29,194 bases of DNA, taken from positions 1-29,194 of IMG/VR virus record IMGVR_UViG_3300014720_000129, one strand, 5' to 3'. Positions 6,296 to 29,194 of the stretch are shown piece after piece. A program made the translations under genes and the position numbers. This DNA comes from a virus. Numbering within the stretch: the first letter of the stretch is position 1; the number at the start of each line of letters is the position of its first letter. The notes below the pieces were generated by a model. That model was not told where the DNA came from. It made no database searches and was given only the letters and a program-made list of their open reading frames with translations.

Positions 6296-6320
6296 CATGA
6301 TGAATTCAACAGAGAACAAA

Positions 6321-6968: not shown

Positions 6969-6971
6969 TAG

Positions 6972-9083: not shown

Positions 9084-9096
9084 TTAGAGAACAAGA

Positions 9097-10947
9097 ATGG
9101 CATACCAAATAAACAAAACGGACGGAACTATTATAGCAACAGTGGCAGATGGTCAGGTAGACACCCTATCCACAGACATCACACTGATAGGTAAAAATTA
9201 CAGTGGCTTTGGCGAAGCATTGAATGAAAATCTAGTAAAAATACTAGAAAATTTTGCCAGCACCACAGCACCCTTGCATCCACTAAAAGGTCAGGTTTGG
9301 TTTGATAATGCAGAAAATAAGTTGAAAGTTTATAATGGCTCAACATTTATTCCTGTTAGTTCTGCAACTATTTCTAGCACACAACCTGCTACCTTATCTA
9401 TAGGCGATTTATGGTTTGATGATGTAGGAGCTCAGTTGTATTTCTTCGACGGGAATCAACCTATATTAATAGGACCAGCATATTCAACAGCACAGGGTAA
9501 AAGCGGATTAGAGGTTGACAGCATATTAGATACTCTGAATCAAACCAAAGTAATAACATATCTTTATAATAATGGTATATTATTAGGAATCTTTTCTAAA
9601 GACAGTTTTACACCTAAAATTTCTATTATTGGATTTAGCGGTAGCATAGAGCCTGGATTCAACGCAGGAACATTGGCTGGTATAAAGTTTCGAGTAACCT
9701 GTACTAATTCAGAACAATTAGGAGGCACAGTAGCTACAACATATGCTAGACGAGATTCAGCTAACACGTTTAGCGGACAATTAAGTATAAACGTAGATGC
9801 AGGTCTAGTAATAGGCTCGGGTAATCAGATGAATCTTTTAGTGAGCTCGGGAGATATTGAAGTATCAAATTTTGCCAGCGACAAAGATCTATTTCTTAAA
9901 GTTAGAAAAGGTATTGATCAAGAAACTGCGGTATCTATAGATTCAAGCACACGGACAGTTGGAATATATTCAGGATTTCCGACTAGCACAGTAAATGTCG
10001 GCGGAAGTCTAGTAGTTACAGGCGATCTAACAGTAGAAGGTACAACTACCACAATCAACACCGCTAATGTAACTATCGAAGATAAACTACTGACATTGGC
10101 CAATGTAGCAGCGCCTAGTGAAACCACAGCCACAGGAGCTGGAATAAAAATAAGATCCACTGGTGCAGATTCATCTGCCTACGACAAAGAAATCATATAT
10201 AGAAGCACAAGTGAGGGACCTCCTCCTACTGGGGTATTCGATGTCAGCGAGGACCTTAACCTAGCCGCAGGCAAACAGTTGCAGATAGGCGGAGTCAAAG
10301 TCATTGATGGCAACAGTCTGGGAAGTTCAATAACCAGTATTCCGGGAGTTACAGCATTTGGCACACAGAATGTCGTAAACATCGGTCCCGGTGCGCCACC
10401 AGTAACACAGATGCGTTTAGAAAACCATAGGATCAGCACGGTGTCAACAAACTTTGACATCGAGCTTGAACCCGACGGCACAGGAAATGTTGCGTTAATA
10501 GGTTCGCCGAGAATCACGGGCATGCAGGATCCAGTAGGTCAACAGGACGCCGCTACCAAAGAATATGTGGACGATACCATAGAGCTGCGCCCACTGATAT
10601 TCAGTATGGATCTGTCTGATGGAAAATCTAACACATATATAATCACCAACGTACTAAACAATCTTGCACCCGTCGCTGAATTTAGGAATGGCACTTATGC
10701 AAGGATATTGTGTACTTTGATCAATCCTTCCAGCACTACGTTGTCCATCAATGCACTGCCTCCTGGCATCAGTACAAATCCTTTCTTGACTGATCTATCA
10801 GGAAGCAGTGCTTTAGCTATTACTAGTATCTCGTTTCCTACAGCTACTATTGCAGCAGCAAGTATTTCAACAACTAGAATTATAAAAACGTTTCAAATTG
10901 TGGCCAGCGTTTGGACATGGCAGTCAGATTTAAGTTTACCACCATAA
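9097..10947 (+). CDS. Tail fibre protein, ATKEYVD type
   Basis: 616 residues, starting 13 bases after the previous stop, with GAGAACAAG just before the ATG. The first 127 residues are the shared fibre module (GKNYSGFGEALNENLVKILE). EQLGGTVATTYARRDSANTF near residue 210 and a GDLTVEGTTTTINTANVTIE stretch near residue 310 are common phage-fibre shaft motifs. Near residues 475-495 is DAATKEYVD, a motif that often marks the start of a coiled or chaperone-like C-terminal part of trimeric fibres. The last 115 residues form a beta-rich tip with no recognised enzyme motif. The role inferred is host recognition or a fibre shaft segment. Confidence 0.87.
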   Translation: MAYQINKTDGTIIATVADGQVDTLSTDITLIGKNYSGFGEALNENLVKILENFASTTAPLHPLKGQVWFDNAENKLKVYNGSTFIPVSSATISSTQPATLSIGDLWFDDVGAQLYFFDGNQPILIGPAYSTAQGKSGLEVDSILDTLNQTKVITYLYNNGILLGIFSKDSFTPKISIIGFSGSIEPGFNAGTLAGIKFRVTCTNSEQLGGTVATTYARRDSANTFSGQLSINVDAGLVIGSGNQMNLLVSSGDIEVSNFASDKDLFLKVRKGIDQETAVSIDSSTRTVGIYSGFPTSTVNVGGSLVVTGDLTVEGTTTTINTANVTIEDKLLTLANVAAPSETTATGAGIKIRSTGADSSAYDKEIIYRSTSEGPPPTGVFDVSEDLNLAAGKQLQIGGVKVIDGNSLGSSITSIPGVTAFGTQNVVNIGPGAPPVTQMRLENHRISTVSTNFDIELEPDGTGNVALIGSPRITGMQDPVGQQDAATKEYVDDTIELRPLIFSMDLSDGKSNTYIITNVLNNLAPVAEFRNGTYARILCTLINPSSTTLSINALPPGISTNPFLTDLSGSSALAITSISFPTATIAAASISTTRIIKTFQIVASVWTWQSDLSLPP

Positions 10948-10954
10948 TGAATAC

Positions 10955-10959
10955 AGGAG
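10955..10959 (+). promoter_or_regulatory. Ribosome binding site of third fibre gene
   Basis: AGGAG, eight bases before the ATG at 10968, inside the 20-base gap between two fibre genes. It supports independent translation of this paralogue. Confidence 0.6.
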
Positions 10960-10967
10960 CGCAATAA

Positions 10968-13241: not shown

Positions 13242-13243
13242 TC

Positions 13244-13600
13244 ATGCACTATGTATGTATAGAAAACAATCAGATCACAGCGATACAGAGTTACGAACCT
13301 GCGGTGCCTAACACAGTGTCCGTGGTTACTATCTCAGATACTCAACATGAACAGATCATGGCGCAGACACACCGATTTGATGTGGCTTCTAGAACTGTGG
13401 TGGTTGTGGACCAAGCGGTGATCAACCAACAAGAGCAGGATAGATTAAACGGTATAGAGCGCGAGTTTTTGAATTCCACAGATTGGAAAGTGATGCGCCA
13501 CATTAGGCAAAAAGCTCTGGGAATTGCTACCAGCCTTACTGATGCAGAATACCTAGAATTAGAGCAGCAACGGCAGACCGCGGCAGCTCGCATAGTTTGA
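13244..13600 (+). CDS. Small fibre-assembly-like protein
   Basis: 118 residues from ATG 13244, chosen because GGAG sits six bases upstream. It starts with a beta-rich part (MHYVCIENNQITAIQSYEP) and ends with a helical, charged tail of about 55 residues containing NSTDWKVMRHIRQKALG and SLTDAEYLELEQQRQ. The pattern 'DW...RH..Q.A.G...SLT..EY..L...RQ' resembles the C-terminal half of tail-fibre assembly proteins and related small proteins encoded after fibre genes. Its position between two fibre paralogues fits a role as fibre-folding or fibre-attachment helper. The N-terminal half is unremarkable. The function is inferred from size, C-terminal pattern and context; it could also be a minor structural protein. 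Confidence 0.6.
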   Translation: MHYVCIENNQITAIQSYEPAVPNTVSVVTISDTQHEQIMAQTHRFDVASRTVVVVDQAVINQQEQDRLNGIEREFLNSTDWKVMRHIRQKALGIATSLTDAEYLELEQQRQTAAARIV

Positions 13601-13632
13601 TAAGTAATAATAATGACTAGCGGAGTATATCA

Positions 13633-15441
13633 ATGGCATATCAAGTAGATAAATTTAACGGTGCTTTTTTTGTATCCGTAGAAGACGGTACGATCGATAC
13701 CACCTCGGATCTTAGATTTGTAGGTAAAAACTATGCGGGATACGGCGAAGTACAAAATGAAAACTTTCTACATCTTTTAGAAAATTTCTCAAACACCACT
13801 GCTCCGCCCAAAGTGATCACTGGACAGATTTGGTTCGATAGTGCCAATAAAAAGTTAAAATTCTATGATGGTTCAAGATTTAAACTGGCAGGTGGAGCAG
13901 AAGTCTCAACCACTGCACCCAGCGGGCTGAGTACCGGTGATTTTTGGTGGGATTCTGCAGCCAAACAATTGTATGCATGGACAGGCACTGAATTTGCACT
14001 CATTGGTCCAGAAGCCAGTCCAGATCTCGGATCGTCAATCATTAGTGCTGCTGTAGTTAAAGGCACGATAAGCACCGCGGTAGGACCGCATACTATACTT
14101 AAAGTCATAACTGATGATAAAACTATAGGCATTTTCAGTAAGACTGCGTTCACTTTAGACAATGCACAGAATGCTATAGATGATTTCACAGTTATTAAGA
14201 AAGGTTTCACACTAGCTAAGTCTCAATCCGGAATCAGCTCCGATGACTACATTCTATGGGGTACTGCAAATAACGCAGATCGTCTAGGCGGGTTTACTGC
14301 AGATCAATACTTAAAATTAGGAGATAACTCATTTACTGGCGAAGTTAAATTCTTTGATCCAGGTTTAACAGTAGGTGATGGTAATGATTTTAGACTGCGT
14401 GTAGAAAACGGTGATGAAGTAATTGTTGAAAATCGTTTAGGAAATCCTATAACATTTAGAATCACAGTAGTTGATACCACAGATGAACGGGATGTTGCTG
14501 TAATAACTAGTACAGGAGTAGTACCCGGTAATGACGCTGCTTATGCACTAGGCTCCGCCGGATTGCGCTGGAGCAATGTGTATGCTGCTATCCATACCGG
14601 AAACCTAGTAGGTAACGTCACAGGAAATTCTACCGGAGTCCATACAGGTAATATATTAGCCTCAGACAACACGGTGATGATCAATGCCGCAACTAAACAG
14701 ATCGGATTTGCAGGAGCCAACATAATTGGCACCCTTACTGGTTCAGTCACAGGAACAGCTAGTTCAGCCACTAATGCTAGTAAACTAAATGATCTAGATC
14801 CTAGTGCAACAGTACCGGGATCTGCTGTTGCTACTATTGCTGTAAGAAATGCATCAGGAAACATCGTAGCAAATCAATTCGTTGGCACGTCAGATAAGTC
14901 AGATAGACTGTATCTCGACGATAGCATAGCTGCTGGAGTATCGGATCCGGCATGGGACCCTGCAACTACCAGCACAAAATATAGAACTGCAAAAGTAACA
15001 GCTACCGCTTACAGCATAGCAGCTAGAGATGCCAGCGGTAATATTGCAGCTAATATTTTTTCAGGCACTGCAACTGCTGCTAGATATGCAGACTTAGCAG
15101 AAAAATATTTGCCCGATACAGAATACCTACCAGGCACAGTTGTTATGATCGGCGGAGAAAAAGAAATTACTGCAAGTGTATTCGGCAAACGTGCTATAGG
15201 AGTTATCAGTGCAAATCCTGCATTTATGATGAATAAAGATCTAGAAGGTGGTGTGTATGTTGCTTTGAAAGGTCGAGTACCTGTTATGGTAATTGGACCT
15301 ATTATAAAAGGTCAAGAGCTAGTTCCAGCAGAAAATGGCCATGCTGTATATAACGGTGATAATCCGACTAGAGCATTTGCGGTTGCATTAGAATCAGATA
15401 ATAGTATGGAAGTTAAATTAATAGAAGCATTGGTGCTGTAA
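13633..15441 (+). CDS. Tail fibre protein with ADLAEKY C-terminal domain
   Basis: 602 residues; GGAG at 13622-13625 lies seven bases before the ATG. Residues 1-126 are the shared fibre module (GKNYAGYGEVQNENFLHLLE). DRLGGFTADQYLKLGDNSFTG and ALGSAGLRWSNVYA are fibre shaft motifs, followed by LVGNVTGNSTG repeats. The last 120 residues or so (from about 483) are a distinct domain: ADLAEKYLPDTEYLPGTVVM, then GVISANPAFMM, ALKGRVPV and KGQELVPAENG. I recall this domain as common at the end of fibre and structural proteins of marine T4-like phages; it resembles C-terminal chaperone or peptidase-like tips but I see no proven catalytic residue. It carries the 21-base ARDASGN-coding repeat (15022-15042) shared with the 10968 fibre. 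Confidence 0.87.
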   Translation: MAYQVDKFNGAFFVSVEDGTIDTTSDLRFVGKNYAGYGEVQNENFLHLLENFSNTTAPPKVITGQIWFDSANKKLKFYDGSRFKLAGGAEVSTTAPSGLSTGDFWWDSAAKQLYAWTGTEFALIGPEASPDLGSSIISAAVVKGTISTAVGPHTILKVITDDKTIGIFSKTAFTLDNAQNAIDDFTVIKKGFTLAKSQSGISSDDYILWGTANNADRLGGFTADQYLKLGDNSFTGEVKFFDPGLTVGDGNDFRLRVENGDEVIVENRLGNPITFRITVVDTTDERDVAVITSTGVVPGNDAAYALGSAGLRWSNVYAAIHTGNLVGNVTGNSTGVHTGNILASDNTVMINAATKQIGFAGANIIGTLTGSVTGTASSATNASKLNDLDPSATVPGSAVATIAVRNASGNIVANQFVGTSDKSDRLYLDDSIAAGVSDPAWDPATTSTKYRTAKVTATAYSIAARDASGNIAANIFSGTATAARYADLAEKYLPDTEYLPGTVVMIGGEKEITASVFGKRAIGVISANPAFMMNKDLEGGVYVALKGRVPVMVIGPIIKGQELVPAENGHAVYNGDNPTRAFAVALESDNSMEVKLIEALVL

Positions 15442-15442
15442 A

Positions 15443-16339
15443 ATGTCTTTGAACTCGGATATCACAGCCGCTGGGTTTGTAACAATACAGAACAAAGCTG
15501 AGGAACTGTTAGGTACAGGTGCCGCCACTAGAGGATACAATCAAACAGTTCTATCGTCGGATGTGTTTTCTGGCAATCAAATTACTAAAGCACAGTGGGA
15601 TCTATTAAAAACTGACATTGTTAACATATTGTATCATCAAAATGGAGAGTTGCCAAATATTGTATCTGTTAATGCTGGCGATGTAATTGGATTCGGCGCC
15701 AGTCATCCGAATACCAACTATGATACTCTGTTAACAACAGCAGACCAAAATAGATTTCAGATAGCAGCTACTCAGTCTGCGGTTAGTTCTAAAGGTTCAG
15801 CAACCTACACTAGTGCTTGGAGTTCATCTGTACAATTTACACTAACTGTAACATTTGCGTCTGCAGACCAGGGACGATATTTTTTTAACAGCGGTGGCAA
15901 AGTTAGAATTAACACAACTATTACCGGCGGCACAAACACCGCTCAGTATAACGCCTGGCTTAATGTTTTAAATGCAGTGGGGGTTCGATCATTTGGTGCA
16001 GACACGGACCCATTAGTGAACTATTATACTCTTACTAGTTCTTTCCAAATATATTATCAAAATTCTCTTTCAGCACCATATGCTGCTAATAATTATCGAT
16101 TAGAAGCCAAAACTGATGTGGCTAACAATTCTACAGGCACGGCAACTATTTTAACTTTAAGAGTAACTTTGACTGATGCATACATTGACCCAGGACCAGC
16201 ATCTCCACCGGGAGACTCAGTCGACGGAACGCTGACTATATCGGTGGAAGAATTAAAAGCATCAGGCTCACTTATACCGTCAGGAACTTTTACAATTTCT
16301 AGCCCTGCATACTCGCTTTCTGTGATCAGTGGCAGTTAA
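15443..16339 (+). CDS. Virion structural protein, paralogue 1
   Basis: 298 residues, starting one base after the fibre stop; no clear ribosome binding site, so translation is probably coupled. Its partner at 16374 shares the whole layout: an N-terminal IQNKAEELLGTG / IRNKVLGVLGTG segment, YHQNGELPNIVSV / VHQVGSNPSTVTV, YDT-x-NRF, QSA, then a beta-sandwich-like core with GRYFFNSGGKVRI / ARYFWNSGGQIRF, GGT, and a C-terminal DPGP-x-GDSVDGTL strand region. I recall the FFNSGG pattern from structural proteins of marine T4-like phages. It has no enzyme motif, signal peptide or membrane segment. A tail or fibre-associated adhesin-like role is inferred from the position after the fibres. Confidence 0.75.
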   Translation: MSLNSDITAAGFVTIQNKAEELLGTGAATRGYNQTVLSSDVFSGNQITKAQWDLLKTDIVNILYHQNGELPNIVSVNAGDVIGFGASHPNTNYDTLLTTADQNRFQIAATQSAVSSKGSATYTSAWSSSVQFTLTVTFASADQGRYFFNSGGKVRINTTITGGTNTAQYNAWLNVLNAVGVRSFGADTDPLVNYYTLTSSFQIYYQNSLSAPYAANNYRLEAKTDVANNSTGTATILTLRVTLTDAYIDPGPASPPGDSVDGTLTISVEELKASGSLIPSGTFTISSPAYSLSVISGS

Positions 16340-16373
16340 TCGATTATATAAGACTTAATCAAAGACAAAACGC

Positions 16374-17318
16374 ATGCCAGTAAATGACATTATCACCCAA
16401 GCAGAATACAACAATATCAGAAACAAAGTACTCGGAGTGCTTGGCACAGGATCGGGGAATTCTGGCTACGGACAACCTTTTGTTAGTACCTCGGTAGCAG
16501 AAGGAAATTCTATTACCATTAATGAGTATGCTAATCTAAGATACGATATTTTCAGTGCTTATGTACATCAGGTAGGATCTAATCCTTCTACAGTGACCGT
16601 AGTAGAAGGTAACACGGTAAGATTTAGTGCTATAGATGCTCCGGTGACTACATACGATACAATAGCTGATACACTTATATCAAATAGATTTAATGTAGGA
16701 GCTGGACAATCAGCTATAAACATACCTACCGCACCTTCAAGTACTACCTGGCCTGGAATATATGGTGCAGATTGGTCTAGCCTTATACAGTGTACAGTGA
16801 CCGCTACATGGCCTGATAGTAATCAAGCTAGGTATTTTTGGAATAGTGGTGGTCAGATTAGATTTACAGCATCTCGTAGCGGCGGTACTGCCGCCACTCA
16901 GAACACACAATGGACATCTATTCTCAGCACCGCTGGTACACAGACCTATGGCGGTAATAATCCTGGCGCTGGCACTAGTCCCAACGATGGTCAAAACTGG
17001 TACAGATGCACCAACACTCGACAGTTGTGGTACAGTCAAAGCGGATCTAGTCCTTACGGCTCTAATACCTATAAAATATATGCTAGAACTTTAGATGCAA
17101 GCAATAACTCTACAGGCACTGCTCGCCAAGGCGAATGGCACATAGAGTTTGTTGATAACTATACAGATCCAGGCCCTCCTGCTCCAGGAGATTCAGTAGA
17201 CGGGACATTCTCAGTAGCAGTTAGTTTACAATATGCCACAGGTATTTTGGTACCGCCAAGTCAGGGCAGTTTTACAGTAACATTGCCTACAGTCACTATT
17301 TCAGCTATAGCACCTTAA
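16374..17318 (+). CDS. Virion structural protein, paralogue 2
   Basis: 314 residues, 34 bases after its paralogue. Conserved landmarks in order are YNNIRNKVLGVLGTGSGNSG, EYANLRYDIFSAYVHQ, YDT-x-NRF, QSA, DSNQARYFWNSGGQIRFTAS, GGT...QNTQWTSIL, AGTQTYGG, and DNYTDPGPPAPGDSVDGTFS near the C-terminus. It differs from paralogue 1 mainly by insertions in the loop after QSA (a proline/threonine-rich stretch) and by a longer GGNNPGAGTSPNDGQNW loop, which is where surface variation would be expected. The last structural gene before the late-promoter-like site at 17342. Function beyond virion component is not recognisable. Confidence 0.75.
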   Translation: MPVNDIITQAEYNNIRNKVLGVLGTGSGNSGYGQPFVSTSVAEGNSITINEYANLRYDIFSAYVHQVGSNPSTVTVVEGNTVRFSAIDAPVTTYDTIADTLISNRFNVGAGQSAINIPTAPSSTTWPGIYGADWSSLIQCTVTATWPDSNQARYFWNSGGQIRFTASRSGGTAATQNTQWTSILSTAGTQTYGGNNPGAGTSPNDGQNWYRCTNTRQLWYSQSGSSPYGSNTYKIYARTLDASNNSTGTARQGEWHIEFVDNYTDPGPPAPGDSVDGTFSVAVSLQYATGILVPPSQGSFTVTLPTVTISAIAP

Positions 17319-17375: not shown

Positions 17376-17726
17376 ATGAATGATCAACTTAAAAAAGCTT
17401 TGGAGTTTGCTAATTACAGGCAGACGTTTTCAATCCAACGTAAGATTCTAAAAGAAAAAATCGCGGCCAAGTTAACACTAGGTTATAATGGCGGACTATT
17501 TCAAATTGACAGAACACTTCTGACTTTTATAGAAATGTTGCTAGTCAAAGGAAGAAGCAGTGGAGTTGTGTTATTAGATACAAATGAAACCCCTATAATG
17601 ATCGAGGATTTAGTTGCTTTTCGAGATGAATGCTTTGATAGGTATTTTGCATCCACTTATGAGTATTTTGAACAAGATCAAAATCTCAAAAAAAGTAGAT
17701 CAGTAGAAAAATTGCTAGAACAATGA
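17376..17726 (+). CDS. Small conserved phage protein, unknown function
   Basis: 116 residues, soluble and helix-rich, with no signal peptide or membrane segment. It opens MNDQLKKALEFANYRQTFSI followed by basic helices (QRKILKEKIAAKLTL), a short NGGLFQID turn, a hydrophobic stretch LLTFIEMLLVKG, and a VVLLDTNETPIMIEDL strand region; the end is charged (LKKSRSVEKLLEQ). I recall similar small proteins in marine T4-like phages near fibre genes but know no function. First gene of the putative operon, with a strong ribosome binding site, and its stop overlaps the next start (ATGA at 17723-17726), so it is probably made with the glycosyltransferases. It could be a small chaperone or regulator. Confidence 0.7.
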   Translation: MNDQLKKALEFANYRQTFSIQRKILKEKIAAKLTLGYNGGLFQIDRTLLTFIEMLLVKGRSSGVVLLDTNETPIMIEDLVAFRDECFDRYFASTYEYFEQDQNLKKSRSVEKLLEQ

Positions 17727-18583
17727 ACAAAGGTGTATTGATCTACGCTCATAATAATCGCACTGTAGATTATGCATTAATGGCGATTATTTCTGGAGGA
17801 CTAGCTAAAAAATATCTTGGACAGCCTGCGTCGTTGGTTACTGACCAAGCTACGTTAGATTGGATGATAGAATCTAAGATATACACTCGTGCTCAAACAA
17901 TTTTTGAAAATATTTTTATAGTTTCTAGACCCGAGTCAACTAATTCTAGAGGTTTGTATGATGGCACAGAACGCAGTACAGTTCAATTTATGAACGGTAA
18001 CAGAAATTCCGCCTACGACATTACTCCATATCAACGAACACTTTTGATTGACGCAGACTTTCTAATATTTTCCAATAGACTGGCAGAATATTGGAATATA
18101 GATGACGATTTTATGATTGGAGAATCTATTAATGATATCTATGACAATCACCGACTAGGATATCATGATAAGTATGTTTCGGACGTAGGTATTAAATTGT
18201 ATTGGGCTACTACTGTGATGTTCACGAAAAATGATAATTCAAAAATGTTTTTTGATCTTGTGCGCCATGTCAAGGATAACTATCAATACTATGCCGACAC
18301 ATACAGATTTGATTCAAAACAATACAGAAATGATATTGCATTTAGCGTGGCCAAACACGTATTAGCAGGATTTGAACAGTCACCATTGGGGTGTTTACCG
18401 CCTGTGTTAACATTATTAGACAGAGATATACTACACTCTGTTGATGCCGATAAATTAACGTTTCTGATATCCCCGAAATTAGATGAGAATTATTGTGCGG
18501 CTTCGATACAGAATATTGACATCCATATAATGAATAAACAGAGTATAGTAAGACACAGCGATAAATTACTGGAGCTAATATGA
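17723..18583 (+). CDS. Predicted glycosyltransferase, GT-A fold (1)
   Basis: 286 residues. Near residue 105 is QRTLLIDADFLIFSN, a hydrophobic strand ending in D-A-D (110-112), the usual form of the metal- and nucleotide-sugar-binding DxD motif of GT-A enzymes. Before it, GVLIYAHN...YALMAIISGGLAKK resembles the first beta-alpha unit of such folds, and GQPASLVTD the second strand. After it, MIGESINDIYDN and LYWATTVMFTKND fit the acceptor-side half. It has no membrane segment, so it would act in the cytoplasm. It overlaps both neighbours by four bases (ATGA). The donor sugar and acceptor cannot be read. The family is assigned from motif and layout only; an inactive or different nucleotide-binding role is less likely. 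Confidence 0.7.
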   Translation: MNKGVLIYAHNNRTVDYALMAIISGGLAKKYLGQPASLVTDQATLDWMIESKIYTRAQTIFENIFIVSRPESTNSRGLYDGTERSTVQFMNGNRNSAYDITPYQRTLLIDADFLIFSNRLAEYWNIDDDFMIGESINDIYDNHRLGYHDKYVSDVGIKLYWATTVMFTKNDNSKMFFDLVRHVKDNYQYYADTYRFDSKQYRNDIAFSVAKHVLAGFEQSPLGCLPPVLTLLDRDILHSVDADKLTFLISPKLDENYCAASIQNIDIHIMNKQSIVRHSDKLLELI

Positions 18584-19419
18584 AATTCGGATATCTGTTA
18601 ATAGTAGCAGAGAATGAATTTGTGGACTATCTACAGTTAGCCTATGCCTTGGCTATTAGTATCAAAAATACACAAAAACCTGGGTTTGATCAAGTGGCGC
18701 TGGTGATCAATGACAAGCAAAAACTTAAAGATTTAAACAGCAGTTGGGTCTTTGATCATGTTATAGAATGGAATCAAGAAACATTCTGGGATGGTCGTAG
18801 CTGGATGGATCAGTTGACACCTTTTGACCACACAGTATGCTTAGATGCTGACATGCTGTTTATGCGTGACTACAGTCATTGGGTCGAATACTTTATTGAA
18901 ACCAGCGAATTATATGTTGCCAATAAAAGCTACACATATCGAGGAGAGATAACTGTTGATCAACATTATAGAAAAACATTTATAAAAAACGATCTACCTA
19001 ATCTGTACAGCATGTATACCTTTTTTAAAAAAGACAGCGAAGTGGTTAAAGAATTTTTCGATCTAGGAAGATATATTATAAAAAATCCTATAGAATTTAC
19101 AAATACTTTCTTATCGGATCATAAACCTCGAGTTGTAGGTACAGATGAATCCTTTGCCCTAGCAGCCAAAATATTAGATATTACCGATGATATTGCATAT
19201 CCTTTAGAGTTTCCCCGAGTTGTACACATGAAACCAATGGTACAGAATTGGCCTTGGCCTGCTGATTGCTGGAGTGATCATGTAGGATTTTATCTAAATC
19301 AAAAAGGAAAATTGAAGATAGGAAATTATCAACAACATGATATTGTTCATTATGTAGAAAAAGATAAAATTAACAAGGAAATGATCAACATTCTCGAGGA
19401 AGTATTATGGAAGAAATAA
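18580..19419 (+). CDS. Predicted glycosyltransferase, GT-A fold (2)
   Basis: 279 residues. FGYLLIVAENEFVDYLQLAY opens the fold and FDHTVCLDADMLFMRDYSHW carries the DxD motif (D-A-D, 89-91), like GT8-type and related enzymes. The sequence is of the same general kind as the upstream gene but not a close copy. Later motifs are YTFFKKDSEVVKEFFDLGRY and GTDESFALAAKI, where the second is the spot of the acceptor-side D/E in GT8-like enzymes, and HMKPMVQNWPWP, a H-x-K-P motif that in GT8 enzymes helps bind the metal and sugar donor. It is translated from an ATGA overlap at 18580-18583. It is likely cytoplasmic and one step of a glycan built with its neighbours, but sugar and acceptor are unknown. 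Confidence 0.75.
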   Translation: MKFGYLLIVAENEFVDYLQLAYALAISIKNTQKPGFDQVALVINDKQKLKDLNSSWVFDHVIEWNQETFWDGRSWMDQLTPFDHTVCLDADMLFMRDYSHWVEYFIETSELYVANKSYTYRGEITVDQHYRKTFIKNDLPNLYSMYTFFKKDSEVVKEFFDLGRYIIKNPIEFTNTFLSDHKPRVVGTDESFALAAKILDITDDIAYPLEFPRVVHMKPMVQNWPWPADCWSDHVGFYLNQKGKLKIGNYQQHDIVHYVEKDKINKEMINILEEVLWKK

Positions 19420-20917: not shown

Positions 20918-22623
20918 TTTATGATATTTTTTATGTAAGCAAATCTAAAATAAATGATTTAGATTACGCCCAGTTTAGGCAGAGATTTCCTATCAGTCAA
21001 AAAATAGAAAATGTTAGTAGTTTCGAAGATATAAGAATAAAAGCATTTACAAAATTTTTTTATGTAATATGGGATGGAACTAAAATTTTAGATTTTCAAT
21101 TTGATTATAAGGTAGGAGATTATGATCAAGAGTATATTCATGTATGGAAAACTTTAAGAAATGACGAAGAAACATATCAAGGAGGAATAGCTCTATTTCC
21201 AAAAAATATTAAATTAGTTTCTTCTAGAGAATTTGCCAATAAATTTTATATAAACAAAAAAGAAATTGATCAAATAATTTCTAAACAAGTATATCCTCGT
21301 TATAATATCAAAGATTACGACGAATATAAAGACATATTAGAAAACACAGGACATGATATGTTCTGGTATGTTCCGGAGGATATTGAGTTAGTTGATGAAA
21401 GTATTTTTAATTTATATTTTGATCCTAATAACGGAAAGTACGATTATGATCGAAATGAAAATCATTCTTTTAAAAACGGCGAATATTATGACGGAGTATT
21501 TTTATTTTCTAAAAATAAAATGATATCTGAAAAAGAATTTAAATTTAGATTCTTAGCAACTAAAAAAGAAATTGACATATTAGCAAGTACCCCTAAACCT
21601 TTTGAACAGCATCATATCGATTCATATTCTGAATATTTGGATATTATAGAAACTTGTAAGACTAATATGTTTTGGGTAGTATGGCCCGATATTGAATTAA
21701 TCGAAGATTTAGATTATCAAGTTCCCTATTATGATCAGCATATAACCCATGTATTTTTAAATGATAAATGGTATGACGGTGTTGTATTATTTTCTAAATC
21801 AGAACCAGTTACTAAAAAAGAATTTGATTACAGATTTTATAAAAATAGAAAAGAAATAGACATGCAAATGTCTGTGCCTAAACCGTATGATATTTTCTTT
21901 ATAAGTTATAATGAACCAAGTGCAGATAAAAATTATAAAAATTTAGTTGCAAAATTTCCTAGAGCAAAACGCATACATGGTATCAGGGGTATACACAATG
22001 CACATAAGGCTGCAGCAGAAAATTCTGAAACTGAAATGGTTTGGGTAGTAGATGCCGATGCTATTTTATTAGAGGATTTTAATTTTGAAATAGAGTATTA
22101 TCCTCATTATGATTCTGGTAATCGTAAAGAACATTTATCTACCGTTCATATATGGCAGAGCAAAAATCCTATTAACGGATTAATATATGGTTATGGCGGT
22201 GTCAAATTATTGCCTAAAGATTTAGTTCTCGAAATGAATATTGATTCGGTGGACATGACAACTTCTATTAGTGAAAAAATTAAAATACAACAAGAAGTAA
22301 GCAACGTCACAGCATTTAATGTTAATCCTTTCGAAACTTGGAAATCTGCTTTTCGAGAATGTGTAAAATTATCAAGTAGAATTATAGATAGAAATTATGA
22401 TGAAGAAAATGAAGTTAGATTAAAAATATGGATGGAAAAAGGTGAAGATCGATTGTTCGGTAAATATGCCTTAGCAGGTGCTAAGGCAGGATATATGTAT
22501 GGTAGTATGAATTTAGGCAATAATGATAAACTAAGATTGATAAATGATTTTCAATGGTTGAAGTCGCAATTTATCGAATGGCAAAAAGAGAATGAGCAAC
22601 CAGGAAAAAATAATAATTCTTAG
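20914..22623 (+). CDS. Glycosyltransferase with three degenerate repeat modules (4)
   Basis: 569 residues. Residues 325-550 or so form an intact domain like the upstream enzyme: YDIFFISYNEPSADKNYKNL, PRAKRIHGIRGIHNAHKAAA, MVWVVDADAIL (D-A-D, 380-382) and NGLIYGYGGVKLLPK. Before it lie three shortened copies of the same half-domain, at about 1-128, 129-230 and 231-324. Each has a W-x-x-D/P core (VIWDGTKIL, WYVPEDIEL, WVVWPDIEL) in place of the D-A-D strand, a YYDGV-F/V-LFSK or GGIALFPK strand, and a basic ending such as KKEFDYRFYKNRKEID. Modules 2 and 3 are the most alike. The copies lack the catalytic D-A-D and are probably binding or spacing units. Base use is notably AT-rich. It overlaps the first radical SAM gene by 32 bases. 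Confidence 0.75.
   Translation: MIYDIFYVSKSKINDLDYAQFRQRFPISQKIENVSSFEDIRIKAFTKFFYVIWDGTKILDFQFDYKVGDYDQEYIHVWKTLRNDEETYQGGIALFPKNIKLVSSREFANKFYINKKEIDQIISKQVYPRYNIKDYDEYKDILENTGHDMFWYVPEDIELVDESIFNLYFDPNNGKYDYDRNENHSFKNGEYYDGVFLFSKNKMISEKEFKFRFLATKKEIDILASTPKPFEQHHIDSYSEYLDIIETCKTNMFWVVWPDIELIEDLDYQVPYYDQHITHVFLNDKWYDGVVLFSKSEPVTKKEFDYRFYKNRKEIDMQMSVPKPYDIFFISYNEPSADKNYKNLVAKFPRAKRIHGIRGIHNAHKAAAENSETEMVWVVDADAILLEDFNFEIEYYPHYDSGNRKEHLSTVHIWQSKNPINGLIYGYGGVKLLPKDLVLEMNIDSVDMTTSISEKIKIQQEVSNVTAFNVNPFETWKSAFRECVKLSSRIIDRNYDEENEVRLKIWMEKGEDRLFGKYALAGAKAGYMYGSMNLGNNDKLRLINDFQWLKSQFIEWQKENEQPGKNNNS
21298..21603 (+). repeat. Degenerate GT module 2
   Basis: Residues 129-230: DEYKDILENTGHDMFWYVP, EDIEL, YYDGVFLFSK, then KEFKFRFLATKKEIDILAS. 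It matches module 3 over nearly its full length, with an extra loop in the middle. Confidence 0.65.
21604..21885 (+). repeat. Degenerate GT module 3
   Basis: Residues 231-324: SEYLDIIETCKTNMFWVVWP, DIEL, WYDGVVLFSK, then KEFDYRFYKNRKEID, ending at the KPY that opens the intact glycosyltransferase domain. Confidence 0.65.
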
Positions 22624-23977
22624 ACAAAAAAGAGAAAAAATAAATGAAATAAGCTCGTGTTTTTGTTCTGCTAAATGGCTGCAAACGACTCTATATCTAC
22701 AAAATGGCTTCAACCATAGTTGTCATCATCCAAGCCCGCATAAAATACCTTTAGAAGAAATAGAAAAAGATCCCGCGGCTTTACACAATAGTAAATTTAA
22801 AAAGCAACAGAGGAAAAAAATGTTAGCAGGCGAACGTCCTGCTGAATGCGATTACTGTTGGCAAATAGAAGACCTTAATAAAGATTATTTCAGCGATCGA
22901 CATTATAAAACAGCAGACTATTGGGCGTGGGATAGATTTAATGAGATAGCATCTGTTGATCCAAATGCCAACGTATATCCATCGTATCTTGAAGTGAGTT
23001 TTTCAAACGCCTGCAATCTCAAATGTAGTTATTGCAGTCCGGAAATTTCCAGCAAATGGCTAGAAGAAATAAAGCAATTTGGCCCTTATCCTATACCGGA
23101 AAGTAATCAAGATATTGAATGGTATAAGAAAGTAGGAAGATATCCTTACAAACACAGTGATGACAATCCGTATATCACTGCATTCTGGCAATGGTTCCCT
23201 CAAGCATTACCTCATTTAAAAGTTTTTAGAATCACCGGCGGCGAGCCATTGATGAGCAAAGATACATGGAAATTATTTGAGTTTATCAAAGAAAATCCGC
23301 AACCGGAACTTGAATTAGCCATTAATACCAATCTAGCTGTTGATAGCAAATTAATAGATAAATTTTTATCAGAAGTTAATGCTATCAAAGACAAAGTTAA
23401 AAATATAGACATTTATACAAGTTTAGAAAGCACAGGAGCTCAATCTGAATATTCTAGATTTGGTTTAATTTATGAAGATTGGATATCTAATATCAGACGT
23501 TGTTTAAACGAAACAGATTTAAGAATATCTGTTATGACAACGATCAATATATTAAGTTTGCCTACATTTGTTGATTTTATAGAACTAATTATGAAATTAA
23601 GATGTAATTATAATGACAGGTTTGAAAAAAACAGGATACCTATAAGCATCAACTATCTGAGATGGCCTGAACACCTCAGCGTCAAGCTATTACCTCACGA
23701 GATGAGATTAAAATATAGTCAGCAAATATTAGAAAAAATCGAACCTTGGGTTAACGGATATCTTCCGGGTAAATTTGCCAGAGTTTATTTAGAAGAATGG
23801 GATCAGATAGAAAGATTCTGCGAGTATCTCACACAAGATGAAAATAATTCAGAAAAAAGAATGTATTTTATCAAATATATAAACGAATACGATCGCCGTA
23901 GAGGAACTAATTTTTCTAAAACATTTCCCGAGTACGCACATTTTTTAGAGGAATGGGATGTCCAAAAAACCCTATGA
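22592..23977 (+). CDS. N-terminal-twitch radical SAM protein, CHHP type (1)
   Basis: 461 residues. The radical SAM core is clear: CNLKCSYC with cysteines 141, 145 and 148 for the [4Fe-4S] cluster that cleaves S-adenosylmethionine, and ITGGEP at 214-219 for SAM binding. Before it, residues 20-92 form a half-SPASM ('twitch') domain: SCFCSAKW (C23, C25), SCHHP (C44) and AECDYCW (C86, C89), presumed to hold an auxiliary iron-sulfur cluster. Twitch domains usually follow the core; here it comes first, as in the family named 'twitch domain-containing radical SAM protein'. The ending YDRRRG...FPEYAHFLEEW is also in the next protein. Substrate unknown; SPASM/twitch enzymes commonly modify peptides. 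AGAGA-like bases before ATG 22592 sit inside the upstream gene. Confidence 0.93.
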   Translation: MSNQEKIIILRQKREKINEISSCFCSAKWLQTTLYLQNGFNHSCHHPSPHKIPLEEIEKDPAALHNSKFKKQQRKKMLAGERPAECDYCWQIEDLNKDYFSDRHYKTADYWAWDRFNEIASVDPNANVYPSYLEVSFSNACNLKCSYCSPEISSKWLEEIKQFGPYPIPESNQDIEWYKKVGRYPYKHSDDNPYITAFWQWFPQALPHLKVFRITGGEPLMSKDTWKLFEFIKENPQPELELAINTNLAVDSKLIDKFLSEVNAIKDKVKNIDIYTSLESTGAQSEYSRFGLIYEDWISNIRRCLNETDLRISVMTTINILSLPTFVDFIELIMKLRCNYNDRFEKNRIPISINYLRWPEHLSVKLLPHEMRLKYSQQILEKIEPWVNGYLPGKFARVYLEEWDQIERFCEYLTQDENNSEKRMYFIKYINEYDRRRGTNFSKTFPEYAHFLEEWDVQKTL

Positions 23978-25460
23978 AACATTAATTGATTATCGAAACA
24001 GAGTTATCGATACAAAAAGCAAAAGTTTTTGCGGAGCTAAGTGGCTTAATGCTACCACATGGTTAGGTAGCGGTTCTACTGCTAGTTGTCATCATCCTCC
24101 TGCACACGATATTCCTTTAGACGAACTTAAAAATAATTATACGGCTATACATAATACCAAACATAAAAAATTAATGAGGAAAATGATGATTGAGGGAGAA
24201 CGTCCCCGTGAATGCGAATATTGTTGGAAAATTGAGGACATTGATGATAGCAAAGTTTCTGATCGTGTTTTTAAAACAATTATCTATAAAGACGAAGAAC
24301 TTGAAGATATTTATAATAAGCCTTGGGATCATGATGCACAATTAAAAACATTAGAAATAAGTTTTGATCGTGTATGTAATCTTGCCTGCTCCTACTGTAA
24401 TGCTAGTTTTAGTACAGCCTGGGCTAGAGATATTAAAAAGAATGGGGCATATCAGAATCTAGTCTCAGACGGAGCCGCCGCTTTTCAACAGGACGGGTCT
24501 TGGGTTGAACCATACAACAAAGATGAAGATAATCCTTACATACAAGCATTCTGGAAATGGTGGGACAACGGTTTAAGCAGCAGCTTAGATGAATTAAGAA
24601 TAACAGGCGGCGAACCATTGATGAGTGGCAATACCTGGAAATTATTAGATTGGTTTAATTCTCAAGGTACTAGCATGAGGTTTGCTATCAATAGTAATTT
24701 AATAGCTAAAGATGAAATTATAGATAATCTTATAGAAAAAACAAAGAATATAAAACAATTTGTTTTATATACCAGTTGCGAGACAGTAGGTGCTCATGCA
24801 GAATATATTCGAGATGGGTTGGTTTATAATCAGTGGAAAAATAATTTAATAAAAATCTTACATGACGGCAACTGCAGAAATATAAACATAATGATGACTA
24901 TCAATAGTTTATGTTTATTTTCTATAACGGATTTTTTTGATGAGATATTAGAATTAAAATCTAGGTACGGAAAACATTTAACAATGAGTATCAATCTATT
25001 AAGATTTCCAAGTTTTCAAAGTCCTTTAGCCCTGCCCGATCATATAAAGGATCATTGTAGAAATCAATTAGAAGAATGGTATTCGAGTAATAAAGATAAT
25101 CCTTTGTTGCACGAACACGAAACAGCCAGTATAGAAAGATTAATAGATTATCTAATAGTAGTGGATGCTCCACATCGTAGAACTAGTAATAAAATTACGT
25201 TATGGAGAGATTTTAAAAGTTTTTACAAACAATACGATGAGCGCAGAGGAAAAGATATAAGAGTTTTTCCACAAATATTATTAGACTGGTTGGAGCGAAT
25301 TCCTGAAACAAAATTAGATCAAATACAAATTCTTGTTGACGGAAATAGTACAAAACAATATGAAAATGATGAAGAGTTACAAAAATTAGCAGAAAAGGAA
25401 GGTTGGATTTTAAAACCAAACAATAAAAATATAGACGATCCATTAGCCAAATATGAATAA
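23958..25460 (+). CDS. N-terminal-twitch radical SAM protein, CHHP type (2)
   Basis: 500 residues; overlaps the upstream gene by 20 bases, with AGAGGAA four bases before ATG 23958. It is a clear paralogue of the first: FCGAKWLNATTWLGSG (C25), SCHHP (C44), RECEYCWKIED (C86, C89), CNLACSYC (C140, C144, C147) and ITGGEP (215-220). Shared side motifs include IPLDEL, HNTKHKKL and DNPYIQAFWKWW, then QYDERRG...FPQ near the end. It is about 40 residues longer than the first, with an added C-terminal tail (ILVDGNSTKQYENDEELQKL) that might carry a binding or docking role. It is likely to use the same kind of substrate as its neighbour, or to act one step later. Confidence 0.93.
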   Translation: MSKKPYETLIDYRNRVIDTKSKSFCGAKWLNATTWLGSGSTASCHHPPAHDIPLDELKNNYTAIHNTKHKKLMRKMMIEGERPRECEYCWKIEDIDDSKVSDRVFKTIIYKDEELEDIYNKPWDHDAQLKTLEISFDRVCNLACSYCNASFSTAWARDIKKNGAYQNLVSDGAAAFQQDGSWVEPYNKDEDNPYIQAFWKWWDNGLSSSLDELRITGGEPLMSGNTWKLLDWFNSQGTSMRFAINSNLIAKDEIIDNLIEKTKNIKQFVLYTSCETVGAHAEYIRDGLVYNQWKNNLIKILHDGNCRNINIMMTINSLCLFSITDFFDEILELKSRYGKHLTMSINLLRFPSFQSPLALPDHIKDHCRNQLEEWYSSNKDNPLLHEHETASIERLIDYLIVVDAPHRRTSNKITLWRDFKSFYKQYDERRGKDIRVFPQILLDWLERIPETKLDQIQILVDGNSTKQYENDEELQKLAEKEGWILKPNNKNIDDPLAKYE

Positions 25461-26787
25461 AAAAATAATAGACATTGTTTCCTTAGATCCTTCTTCCTTA
25501 TTAAAAGAAAATAAATCTTTCTGTGCAGCCCCCTGGGTACATACTCATACTTGGCCTGACGGACGAGTGTTTCCTTGTTGTATGGCTGATTATAATGCAG
25601 TATTGGGCAATTTAAACGAATCTAAAACTTTCGAAGCAATATGGAATAATGAAAATTATAAGACATTGCGTCAAGATATGATCGAAGGCAAAGAAAGACC
25701 CGATATCTGTAATAGGTGTTATGCTCAAGAAAAACATTCTATCACTAGTCTTAGAGAAAAAATAACTAAAGAATTTTGGAAAGAAACTAAAGAACAATTA
25801 GAAAACACTAAAGAGGACTATTCAGCAGATTTAAAGTTACCCTATTGGGACTATAGATTTAACAATATTTGTAATTTAAATTGCAGAACCTGTGGACCGG
25901 ACCTTAGTAGCAGTTGGTATCAAGATCATATTACAATGTATGGAAAACCGCCAAAATATGCTACAACAAAATTTGTTGTATTTGACTCAAATAAAGAACA
26001 TTCGGTGCATAGCGAATTAATAGAAAATCAAATAGAATATGTTAAAGAAATATATTTTGCCGGCGGCGAGCCTATTTTAATGCCGGAACATTTAGATATT
26101 ATCCAGCGATTAATACAAAAAAATAAAACTGATATTTTAATTAGATATAGTACTAATTTGAGTGTTTTATCTTACAAAGGAAAAAATTTTTTAGATTTAT
26201 GGCCTAAATTTAAAAAAGTCATGATTTATGTTAGTCTAGACGAAATTGAAAATCGTGCCGAGTACTGGAGAAATGGAACTAATTGGTCTAGATTAGAAAA
26301 AAATATAAAATCATTAATTGAACTCGAAAAAAAACATCAAAATATAAAAATGGGATATGCTCCTACAATTAGTATTTTTAATATACACAGGATGCACTCG
26401 TATATGAGATATCTAGTAGATAATAGATTAATAAATGAATATACACCTTTTGTGTTTAATATTTTACAAGGTCCGACAGAATTCAATATAAAAAATGCTC
26501 CCGAACAATTAAAAATTTCAGCAAGAAAATCTTTAAAAGAATTAAAATCAATAACTGCCGGTTGGCCTAGACAATCAAAAGATATAGATATAGTAGAAAA
26601 TTGGTTAAATGAAGAAAAGGTCGACGAAGAAATTTATTATAAAACAGCAAGACATTTAGCCGAAATTGATAAAGTTAGGAATCAAAGTTTAAAATCAGTG
26701 GCTCCTGAATTATACGAAATTTACCAAACATATGATTATGATCGATACTATAATAACTTTACGCCTTGCAAACCGCCTGGTCAATAA
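25453..26787 (+). CDS. N-terminal-twitch radical SAM protein, CC type (3)
   Basis: 444 residues; overlaps the upstream gene by eight bases. The N-terminal domain is the classic half-SPASM form: SFCAAPW (C24), DGRVFPCC (C42, C43), LGNLNES, EAIWNNENYKTLRQDM, and ICNRCY (C86, C89). The core is CNLNCRTC (C140, C144, C147) and FAGGEP (202-207). The pattern 'CC...LGN...IWN...LR...C..C' is the one found at the C-terminus of usual SPASM proteins, here moved to the front. It differs from the two upstream paralogues, which have CHH in place of CC and no LGNL. RYSTNLS and LDLWPKFKKVMIYVSLDE match the fourth radical SAM protein. It may act on a different substrate or residue than the first two. Confidence 0.93.
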   Translation: MNKKIIDIVSLDPSSLLKENKSFCAAPWVHTHTWPDGRVFPCCMADYNAVLGNLNESKTFEAIWNNENYKTLRQDMIEGKERPDICNRCYAQEKHSITSLREKITKEFWKETKEQLENTKEDYSADLKLPYWDYRFNNICNLNCRTCGPDLSSSWYQDHITMYGKPPKYATTKFVVFDSNKEHSVHSELIENQIEYVKEIYFAGGEPILMPEHLDIIQRLIQKNKTDILIRYSTNLSVLSYKGKNFLDLWPKFKKVMIYVSLDEIENRAEYWRNGTNWSRLEKNIKSLIELEKKHQNIKMGYAPTISIFNIHRMHSYMRYLVDNRLINEYTPFVFNILQGPTEFNIKNAPEQLKISARKSLKELKSITAGWPRQSKDIDIVENWLNEEKVDEEIYYKTARHLAEIDKVRNQSLKSVAPELYEIYQTYDYDRYYNNFTPCKPPGQ

Positions 26788-27751
26788 TATCGATCCGTTT
26801 TATCTCGATATCCAATTATCGGATCATACTGCTGTCAAGTTATGGGCTGATAGATTTCTCTATGAACTAAAATCGGGGGCAATGGTGAAAAAAGAACATA
26901 TTTTTATGAGTCATAGCCCATTGACTGTAGAACAAATGATAGAGCAGATAAACAAAACTCTAGACAGCATCAATGAATATGATTTTATATCTAACCAACA
27001 TCCAGATTATCCTATATCTGAGCAACCGAAATTGACAGAACGGTTATCGATAAATGATTTCGCAAAAGGTCCTAATAATTCAAAAATGAATTTGATACAT
27101 AATTATTTTCCTAAGTTGGCAGGATCTGCGCAAATAACCAGCAATTATATGTATGCGGCATCTCCTGAAATTAGGATAAAGATATGTAGATTGAATTTGG
27201 AAGTTCACGAATTACATACACTCCTGCAAAAAGATCCTAACCATATAGGCATGCATCTTAACATAAGTTGGCAACGTGCCCCTAAAAATTTGCCAATATT
27301 ACCCATAATGTTTGATGATATTTTTTCAAAAAAAATAAGTTTTGGTGATGTTTTGTTGGGATATCCTCAGGTAGGAAAAACTTATTTTGAAGCATTTATC
27401 GAAGAGGATGAGGAATTAAGTGATGAAAATGTAGAACCTATACGATTATTAAGTGGCGATATGTTGGTACACCTTAGTTCGGATATTAATGATAATATTA
27501 TAAAAAAATTTAATGAATGGTTAGAAAATAAAAAACTTGATCCAAATGATAAATCACTTAGACTAGGATTTGCTGTATTAGGAAAAGTAATAAATGTTGA
27601 TAGAAATGCTGTAAAAAATGTTTTATGTAACTATAATGACATTGATCAAATCATATTTGAAAAAAATCAGATTAAAGAAATTTTTGATTTTCCGTATAGT
27701 AGATTTGATCTCGATTATGACAAGGTGTGGCTGAAACATGTCGACGATTAA
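26732..27751 (+). CDS. Unknown protein embedded in the radical SAM array
   Basis: 339 residues from ATG 26732 (overlap 56 bases with the third radical SAM gene); a second ATG two codons later, at 26738, is equally possible. I do not recognise it. It has no CxxxCxxC and no twitch cysteines, signal peptide or membrane segment. It begins with a beta-strand-like DTIITLRLANRLV and YLDIQLSDHTAVKLWADRFL, then has LIHNYFPKLAG (121-131) and RLNLEVHELHTLL (153-165), two H-containing helices whose spacing recurs in my memory of phage proteins near radical SAM genes, but I cannot name the family. The C-terminal half is acidic (EEDEELSDENVEP). Its place between two radical SAM enzymes, with overlaps on both sides, makes it a candidate partner or substrate-delivery protein. 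Confidence 0.7.
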   Translation: MIMIDTIITLRLANRLVNNIDPFYLDIQLSDHTAVKLWADRFLYELKSGAMVKKEHIFMSHSPLTVEQMIEQINKTLDSINEYDFISNQHPDYPISEQPKLTERLSINDFAKGPNNSKMNLIHNYFPKLAGSAQITSNYMYAASPEIRIKICRLNLEVHELHTLLQKDPNHIGMHLNISWQRAPKNLPILPIMFDDIFSKKISFGDVLLGYPQVGKTYFEAFIEEDEELSDENVEPIRLLSGDMLVHLSSDINDNIIKKFNEWLENKKLDPNDKSLRLGFAVLGKVINVDRNAVKNVLCNYNDIDQIIFEKNQIKEIFDFPYSRFDLDYDKVWLKHVDD

Positions 27752-29078
27752 AAAAGCAAGTCCTTATTTTTGCATCGCTCCCTGGACTCATACTTACATT
27801 AGTCCTCAAAGTGAAAGACGCATTTGCTGTGCCAGTAGAGAAAAAGCCACTTGGACTCAACAATACATTGATGCAAAAGAGCCAACATCTAGCAAAAAAT
27901 ATATTCCTATAACATTAGAAGAGCATTGGAATAGCGAACACATGAAATCTGTACGTCATAGAATATTGGACGGAGAACGAATTCCGGAATGTGAAGTTTG
28001 TCATAGTCAGCAATTAAATTTACATACATATAGAAATTATTTTACTAATACGCTGTTTTCAGATAAAATTGAAGAAGCATTGAACTCTACAGATGAGACG
28101 GGGTATACTACAATGAAACCCATAAGTTTTGATTATAGAATTCATAATTTATGTAATTTTAAGTGTAGAATGTGCGGAGAGCAATTATCAAGTAGTTGGG
28201 AAACAGAAAAAAGATTAATGAATGCTTGGAATCCTGAAAAAGATGCTTGGATGATTCCTGAGAATAAAAAGATAGTTGAAGAATTTCAAGAGACCGTAGT
28301 TGAACAGGAGATATGGAATGCGGTAAAAGAAGATAGAATAGAAGAAATATACTGGGTTGGTGGAGAACCTTTAATGTATCAAATACATTGGGACGTGATG
28401 AAGTATCTTGTAGATAATAATCAGGCACATAAAGTAGTGGTAAGATATAATACTAATTTAAGTATTATAGAACGCAATGGAGTAAATTTATACGATCTTT
28501 TACCGCATTTTAAAAATGTGAATATGTGTTGCAGTCAAGATGCTACCGGAAGAATAGCAGAATTTATTAGAACAGGTTTAAAATATGAAAGATGGTTAGA
28601 TAATTTTAAACAAGGAATTTTTCTAAATTCTAAATATGGTATGGATGCCATGGTAATTGATGTTACCATTACGCTGGCTGGTTTATTAGATATAAAATCG
28701 TTGATGAATTTAGCAGTTGACTTGGGAGTTAAAAGTTATGTAAAAATTACTTTTGATTTTGACAGTTCGATAGTTATGAGCCCAATGGCTTTGCCGAGGG
28801 ATATTTTAAATGATATATTGTATGATTTAATTGATTATGAAAAAAATATAAATTCTCCTCTTACTCGAGTCTATAAAGAAACATTTGAAAATATGTTACT
28901 CCGTCCAACCTTTGAAGAAAAATACAAAGAAAATTATAAAATAGGATTAAAACACGGCAAAGATAGAATGGAAAAAATCGCTGCATTTAGAAAAGACGGA
29001 AAAGAAAATCAAGCGATTACTATTGAAGAAATATTTTCAAACAACAAAAAAGTATTAGATTGGTGGAATCAGATATGA
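27738..29078 (+). CDS. N-terminal-twitch radical SAM protein, CC type (4)
   Basis: 446 residues; overlaps the unknown upstream gene by 14 bases. N-terminal half-SPASM: YFCIAPWTHTYISPQSERRI (C12), CC (C30, C31), then a 20-residue insertion, EEHWNSEHMKSVRHRIL and IPECEVC (C85, C88). Core: CNFKCRMC (C139, C143, C146) and WVGGEP (206-211). RYNTNLS, YDLLPHFKNVNMCCSQDATG and TGLKYERWLDNF match the third paralogue, with D-A in place of D-E in the strand after the cysteine pair. There is an extra cysteine pair, MCC, in that strand, which the third lacks. Like the others it should be a cytoplasmic, oxygen-sensitive enzyme requiring S-adenosylmethionine and a reductant. Confidence 0.93.
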   Translation: MSTIKKASPYFCIAPWTHTYISPQSERRICCASREKATWTQQYIDAKEPTSSKKYIPITLEEHWNSEHMKSVRHRILDGERIPECEVCHSQQLNLHTYRNYFTNTLFSDKIEEALNSTDETGYTTMKPISFDYRIHNLCNFKCRMCGEQLSSSWETEKRLMNAWNPEKDAWMIPENKKIVEEFQETVVEQEIWNAVKEDRIEEIYWVGGEPLMYQIHWDVMKYLVDNNQAHKVVVRYNTNLSIIERNGVNLYDLLPHFKNVNMCCSQDATGRIAEFIRTGLKYERWLDNFKQGIFLNSKYGMDAMVIDVTITLAGLLDIKSLMNLAVDLGVKSYVKITFDFDSSIVMSPMALPRDILNDILYDLIDYEKNINSPLTRVYKETFENMLLRPTFEEKYKENYKIGLKHGKDRMEKIAAFRKDGKENQAITIEEIFSNNKKVLDWWNQI

Positions 29079-29194
29079 TTAAAGATGTCACCTGTTGCCT
29101 ACCGTGGAATCATTTAGCTACTCATCCCAATGGCAATGTAAGTTTATGTTGTCAAGCAAAATTAGATGACGGGTCTGGATTCGCCAAATCAGAT
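29075..29194 (+). CDS. N-terminal-twitch radical SAM protein (5), 3' partial
   Basis: The frame starts at ATG 29075, overlapping the previous stop as ATGA, and runs off the window after 40 codons. It reads MIKDVTCCLPWNHLATHPNG then NVSLCCQAKLDD...: a cysteine followed by L-P-W, an NG turn and a CC pair, the opening of a CC-type half-SPASM domain as in the third and fourth proteins. The radical SAM core is not visible. The CC at positions 7-8, in place of the single C of its relatives, is unusual. It shows that the array continues beyond the right edge. Confidence 0.75.
   Translation, partial: MIKDVTCCLPWNHLATHPNGNVSLCCQAKLDDGSGFAKSD

Follow-up and report, generated by a model that had tools for sequence, protein, structure and literature searches.

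Divergent, ordered N_Twi_rSAM radical SAM paralogues shared by large tailed phages and Bdellovibrionota

Arrays of radical SAM (rSAM) genes as such have already been reported in phages (PMC5332604; PMC7029224). The Tara T4-like genome TARA_ERS488813_N000010 carries 12 rSAM genes, described in the setting of Fe-S metabolism (PMC5332604), whereas the host-recognition clusters of pelagimyophages combine GT8 enzymes with rSAM cassettes, and there the authors interpret the glycosyltransferases as serving O-chain modification (PMC7029224). As far as the available portions of these reports go, marine T4-like phages resemble the locus described here in that a large tailed-phage genome carries numerous rSAM genes, next to tail fibres and GT8-type glycosyltransferases; the pelagimyophage clusters also agree with it in gene types (tail fibres, GT8 and rSAM), but the large structural protein of our locus is nearest to jumbo-phage homologues. 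In the same portions of both reports genes are counted, and paralogue groups, gene order and a bacterial counterpart are absent; the likeness drawn here is one of description, not of sequence.

Radical SAM enzymes perform C-H chemistry that is within reach of few other enzymes. The SPASM/twitch peptide maturases SkfB, SuiB and anSME have in common with the proteins studied here, termed RS1 to RS5, a barrel and an auxiliary cluster, and are among their top structural matches; however, their auxiliary domain is mainly C-terminal, and neither a precursor gene nor an RRE domain was seen in the RS array. BtrN, a 2-deoxy-scyllo-inosamine dehydrogenase, has an auxiliary-cluster twitch domain homologous in sequence to that of the RS proteins, but placed after the barrel, at the C-terminus, whereas the RS twitch precedes the barrel. 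Finally, the NCBIfam family NF033640 (N_Twi_rSAM), whose domain order RS1 to RS4 share and whose cut-off they exceed well, is widespread and, as far as the searched literature goes (no paper naming it was found), is a family name only, with no known function or reaction; what was a bare name is here a series of genes in set order, representing at least four distinct groups of paralogues. To the extent of the literature searched, in the portions available, the resolved paralogue module and its conserved order beside exchangeable cassettes are new, as are the N-terminal BtrN-like twitch in RS proteins and the occurrence of the module in Bdellovibrionota. A defined, ordered paralogue set found in many phages and on bacterial chromosomes is a concrete system to express.

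The window, that is, the whole stretch of DNA analysed, is the linear virus record IMGVR_UViG_3300014720_000129 (29,194 bases), a fragment of an uncultured jumbo-like tailed phage; its large structural protein shows its best likeness to jumbo phages such as PA5oct and GAP32. Structural and tail genes are followed, in this order, by two GT8-like genes, F7, F1, a longer F1-family protein and the RS array (Table 1). The genes RS1-RS2-RS3-U-RS4-RS5 lie head to tail on the + strand, each overlapping the next, and the overlaps between successive genes are unbroken from position 17376 onward. The G+C content is 39-42% at first (about 40% for the tail genes) and drops to 31-34% where the glycosyltransferase and rSAM genes lie (18000-29194), as if this cassette had a separate history. 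Scans of the window for sigma-70 promoters and terminators gave signals no higher than chance, and the T4 late-promoter word occurs once (5.4 occurrences expected), inside the array and on the opposite strand.

Table 1. Features of the window, with the evidence for each assignment
Feature	Coordinates	Strand	Evidence
Upstream tail/structural genes: large structural protein, tail-collar fibre, fibre-like proteins	2..17318	+	PHROGs virion, tail-fibre and baseplate matches
Tail-collar fibre	6972-9083	+	Pfam Collar, E 2.5e-17
GT8/glycogenin-like glycosyltransferase, copy 1	17723..18583	+	Family profile vs glycogenin-1, E 4e-4
GT8/glycogenin-like glycosyltransferase, copy 2	18580..19419	+	Same family as copy 1
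F7, conserved cassette gene, 205 aa	19407..20024	+	Present in 33 loci; without confident family
F1, conserved cassette gene, DxDN motif, 298 aa	20021..20917	+	Present in 56 loci
F1-family protein with N-terminal repeats, 569 aa	20914..22623	+	Family membership; repeats by eye
RS1, N_Twi_rSAM, CHHP subtype, 461 aa	22592..23977	+	NF033640, 339.6 bits
RS2, N_Twi_rSAM, CHHP subtype, 500 aa	23958..25460	+	NF033640, 303.6 bits; 39% identity to RS1
RS3, N_Twi_rSAM, CC subtype, 444 aa	25453..26787	+	NF033640, 358.6 bits; Pfam SPASM and Radical_SAM matches
U, protein without family, 339 aa, between RS3 and RS4	26732..27751	+	ORF
RS4, N_Twi_rSAM, CC subtype, 446 aa	27738..29078	+	NF033640, 294.2 bits
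RS5 start, fifth N_Twi_rSAM, 40 residues, gene cut by record end	29075..29194	+	Twitch motif CCLPWNHLATHPNGNVSLCC

The original prediction of a tandem rSAM array, with four complete cores and a fifth cut by the edge, overlapping and on one strand, agrees with the open reading frames and with the NF033640 scores. RS1 to RS4 match this model over nearly its full length (340, 304, 359 and 294 bits; cut-off 170 bits; E values from 1e-87 to 1e-107), and their membership of the family is far beyond chance. A search of the whole record gave five matches, the fifth being RS5; this fragment includes no core, but is 90% identical over 39 residues to the complete RS5 of locus L015, while the RS5 orthologue in L005 scores 350.6 bits. 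The CxxxCxxC and GGEP core is present in all four complete proteins. In RS1, the twitch cysteines (C25, C44, C86 and C89) precede the radical SAM cysteines (C141, C145 and C148), so that the twitch domain, with conserved cysteines of its own, is N-terminal to the core. The CxxxCxxC and GGE(P) motifs are found in nearly every homologue counted. An SC[HY]HP motif marks RS1 and RS2 and a CC motif RS3 to RS5, a split that runs through the whole lineage. The AlphaFold model of RS1 (pLDDT 93) has a radical SAM barrel, the partial TIM barrel of the superfamily, and an N-terminal auxiliary domain, and matches radical SAM structures at Z 10-13; the closest folds are those of SkfB (the best, Z 13.3), DesII, BlsE, MoaA and anSME. 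When the twitch-domain profile was compared with PDB sequences, only BtrN matched (E 3.3e-6). Assignment of the RS proteins as BtrN-type dehydrogenases was rejected, the twitch domain of that type being C-terminal and the homologous domain here N-terminal.

Two findings that would weigh against a set of distinct enzymes, near-identical recent copies and unconserved cysteines, are excluded: any two RS copies of the window share about 20-39% identity, against 60-89% with orthologues elsewhere, and conservation across 352 homologues is near 100% at the three core and four twitch cysteines. For RS1, RS2 and RS4, identity to the orthologues in other phages is 62-89%, and in a tree of the 352 sequences each RS protein falls in its own group, usually with one member per locus, although support for the deepest nodes of the RS4 and RS1 groups is low to modest. 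RS3 forms the loosest group, with its nearest relatives in L005 and L015 (three rows) and a deep wider clade. The identities and the trees together rule out recent tandem duplication, and each paralogue is, by these comparisons, an ancient line with orthologues of its own. The dN/dS values against L005 and L015, taken where synonymous change is unsaturated, are 0.05-0.22 and point to purifying selection on the RS genes. It had been proposed that so many paralogues make a multi-step modification likely and that the CHHP and CC subtypes suggest at least two reactions. Divergence, purifying selection and fixed order (see below) fit several steps, and the two subtypes are two old clades and therefore at least two different enzymes; the part of the proposal that pointed to a peptide as substrate was not supported (see below).

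Relatives of RS4 are encoded by at least 599 viral stretches. In 47 non-redundant viral loci with RS4, the order RS1, RS2, RS4, RS5 is kept in 39/42, 39/43 and 31/37 pairs and reversed in 1, 1 and 0; among the 38 loci of at least 17 kb, RS1, RS2 and RS4 occur together in 37, with RS5 as well in 32. These loci were found mostly via RS4, and the co-occurrence counts are therefore conditional on RS4; queries with RS1 and RS3 added a few loci, and those with RS2 and RS5 none. Gene maps of 97 loci, the window counted in, place RS1-RS2-RS4-RS5 next to at least three different upstream cassettes: one (a) with fibre genes, GT8-like genes and F1, another (b) with a GT2-like gene and GT7-lectin fusions, and with a tail-sheath gene downstream, and a third (c) with desaturase, acetyltransferase and methyltransferase-like genes. 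As many as 13 family members occur in whole viral records. The array of L005 and of L015, which are the nearest relatives to have RS1 to RS5, consists of exactly five genes followed by genes on the opposite strand, so that the array of the window is probably also one of five. The near relatives L012 and L016 have RS1-RS3-like genes, with RS4 and RS5 absent from their contigs; thus, the full set of five need not be present.

The array had been regarded as peculiar to phages, and this did not hold: Bdellovibrionota genomes with the module have 9-31 family matches. Bdellovibrionota is a phylum of predatory bacteria. When one genome per species was scanned, relatives turned up in Bdellovibrionota, Bacteroidota, Alphaproteobacteria and others, and in the phylum of the Bacteriovoracaceae MAG G051, 54 of the 192 sampled genomes were above the NF033640 cut-off. 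Classification with group profiles assigned all of RS1, RS2, RS3, RS4 and RS5 to each of four genomes (G051, G052, G053 and G069); for G051, five of the matches listed are over the cut-off, one per group. RS4 is followed directly by RS5 in G051, G053 and G054, and in G053 the genes run consecutively as RS2-RS4-RS5-RS3. The G051 module has chromosomal surroundings, with leucyl-tRNA synthetase, peptide deformylase and Obg, as named from their sequences, among its neighbours. In a quick tree of 108 sequences, the RS1, RS2 and RS4 groups each contain bacterial proteins interspersed with viral ones; in this tree, RS4 of G051 is sister to that of the window (support 98), and RS5 of G051 groups with one viral RS5, most viral RS5 proteins forming a clade of their own. 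A literature search combining radical SAM and Bdellovibrio, judged by titles, suggested no link. Several MAG contigs labelled Pelagibacter, Betaproteobacteria, Rickettsiales or Rhodobacteraceae (L105, L106, L107, L128 and L149-L151) contain the phage cassette; these are probably of phage origin and were binned together with bacteria.

What might such a module do? The reading that we prefer, while giving it a little less than an even chance of being right, is that the array is a multi-enzyme N_Twi_rSAM module that modifies a glycan, on a surface or on the virion, by successive radical reactions. To judge from the conserved cysteines, each RS protein would bind two [4Fe-4S] clusters, the radical SAM cluster in its barrel and an auxiliary one in the N-terminal BtrN-like twitch. 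By analogy with BtrN and other twitch/SPASM enzymes, a 5'-deoxyadenosyl radical would abstract a hydrogen from the substrate and an electron would pass to the auxiliary cluster, so that the step would be an oxidation or a related C-H rearrangement. The five enzymes would most likely work in succession, or at different residues, and their common substrate would be a glycan or nucleotide sugar that the GT8-like enzymes and other glycosyltransferases nearby provide; the host envelope or the phage tail fibres would then display an unusual sugar. If so, this would bear on the ways in which large phages and predatory bacteria recognise or change cell envelopes.

Three lines of evidence favour a sugar as substrate. 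First, cassettes (a) and (b) contain glycosyltransferases (GT8-like genes, GT7-lectin fusions and a GT2 match slightly below the cut-off), and farther along the cassettes there are a carbamoyltransferase, a UDP-glucose-dehydrogenase-like protein and weak GDSL-like matches. Second, in the cultured Vibrio phage K566 (L220, 12013-16415), a GT8 gene lies among three family members (two over the NF033640 cut-off, the third at 154 bits); a weak GT4 match comes next, and some 5.6 kb farther is a gene annotated as the lipid A enzyme PagP. Third, in G069, a Bdellovibrionota genome with a 2.66-Mb contig, the surroundings of the module include a nucleotidyltransferase and a choline-kinase-like protein together with GDSL proteins and a GT2. 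DesII and BlsE, which are among the closest folds of RS1, act on sugar nucleotides. Against the glycan reading stands the fact that SkfB, the closest fold, and several others act on peptides; moreover, the twitch is a general auxiliary-cluster domain and alone does not point to sugars. No recognised glycan gene was seen among the housekeeping neighbours of the G051 module, and Pfam counts on bacterial contigs gave no clear near/far difference in glycan enzymes around rSAM genes, in two samples of 102 proteins (1-2 genes away against at least 6), the far set lying partly in the same clusters. A broader proposal, that RS1 to RS5 are a radical assembly line for a novel surface modification, employed by Bdellovibrionota and by large phages alike and transferred between the two as a unit, seems to us possible but rather doubtful.

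The peptide chemistry of SkfB, the nearest fold, and then of anSME and SuiB, would fit a protein substrate instead, with radical post-translational changes such as cross-links, epimers or oxidised residues introduced into tail fibres or other virion proteins of the same operon; in the window the array does come after tail-fibre genes and, in many relatives, after tail genes. The gene U, between RS3 and RS4, may be relevant here. Its family has 26 members, all within loci holding rSAM arrays, with N120, H123, N155, H159 and G215-K216 invariant. Pfam, NCBIfam, PHROG and a sequence profile against the PDB gave no match to U, nor did Foldseek with its AlphaFold model (pLDDT 89.6) find anything, E values being over 0.2; in a second structural search nearly all listed matches were cyclophilins (Z 7.6-9.4; rmsd 3.5 over 140 aa at Z 9.4). 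U is thus a candidate for a cyclophilin-like fold, which, if the model is right, could bind peptides. However, the module is found elsewhere upstream of a sheath gene or beside the fatty-acid desaturase cassette, and therefore does not track tail fibres; the bacterial copies have no adjoining phage fibre; no RRE or PqqD domain was seen in Pfam scans of the proteins scanned; and the overlapping genes of the array leave no gap for a precursor gene, a distant precursor being possible. We therefore consider a protein substrate unlikely, though it is the most credible of the alternatives to a glycan.

Slightly less probable still is that the genes serve unrelated substrates and were piled up by recombination in a hypervariable region, their order reflecting shared ancestry only. 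Copy numbers from a few to 13, with extra copies gained and lost, would fit such a history, as would the hypervariability of pelagimyophage host-recognition clusters, where, in the portion of the report available, rSAM cassettes distinguish two genomes (PMC7029224). Yet the order persists beside different cassettes and partly on bacterial chromosomes, and all five groups are present in four Bdellovibrionota genomes. A lipid as product or substrate in place of a sugar, for example lipid A or a membrane lipid, might be suggested by the fatty-acid desaturase of the third cassette, the annotated PagP near the K566 array and an archaeal tetraether synthase among the structural matches, but is improbable: only some of the cassettes contain lipid genes, glycosyltransferases are found more often, and no feature of the RS proteins is specific to lipids.

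The genes between the fibre genes and the array gave few matches. F1 had none in Pfam or the PDB, and a search of the cultured-phage collection with the F1 of the window gave no relative at E 1e-5; the protein carries a DxDN motif and is possibly a GT-A enzyme. No PDB sequence-profile match was found for F3, and profile scans gave no confident family for F7. A relative of F1 adjoins rSAM genes in the Bdellovibrionota locus L198. The longer F1-family protein of the window has, by eye, repeated N-terminal segments of ~90-120 aa before its F1-like C-terminal part. Elsewhere, the second family member of K566 also gives a weak match to a viperin model, and the 1106-aa ORF of contig L135, from a bacterium MAG, scores 690 bits and is perhaps two fused copies. 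The Elusimicrobia contig L147 carries four tandem long ORFs (668-957 aa) with the N_Twi_rSAM domain, and the Bdellovibrionota genome G058 (contig C192, L196-L197) holds 31 family matches, more than 10 of them within about 33 kb.
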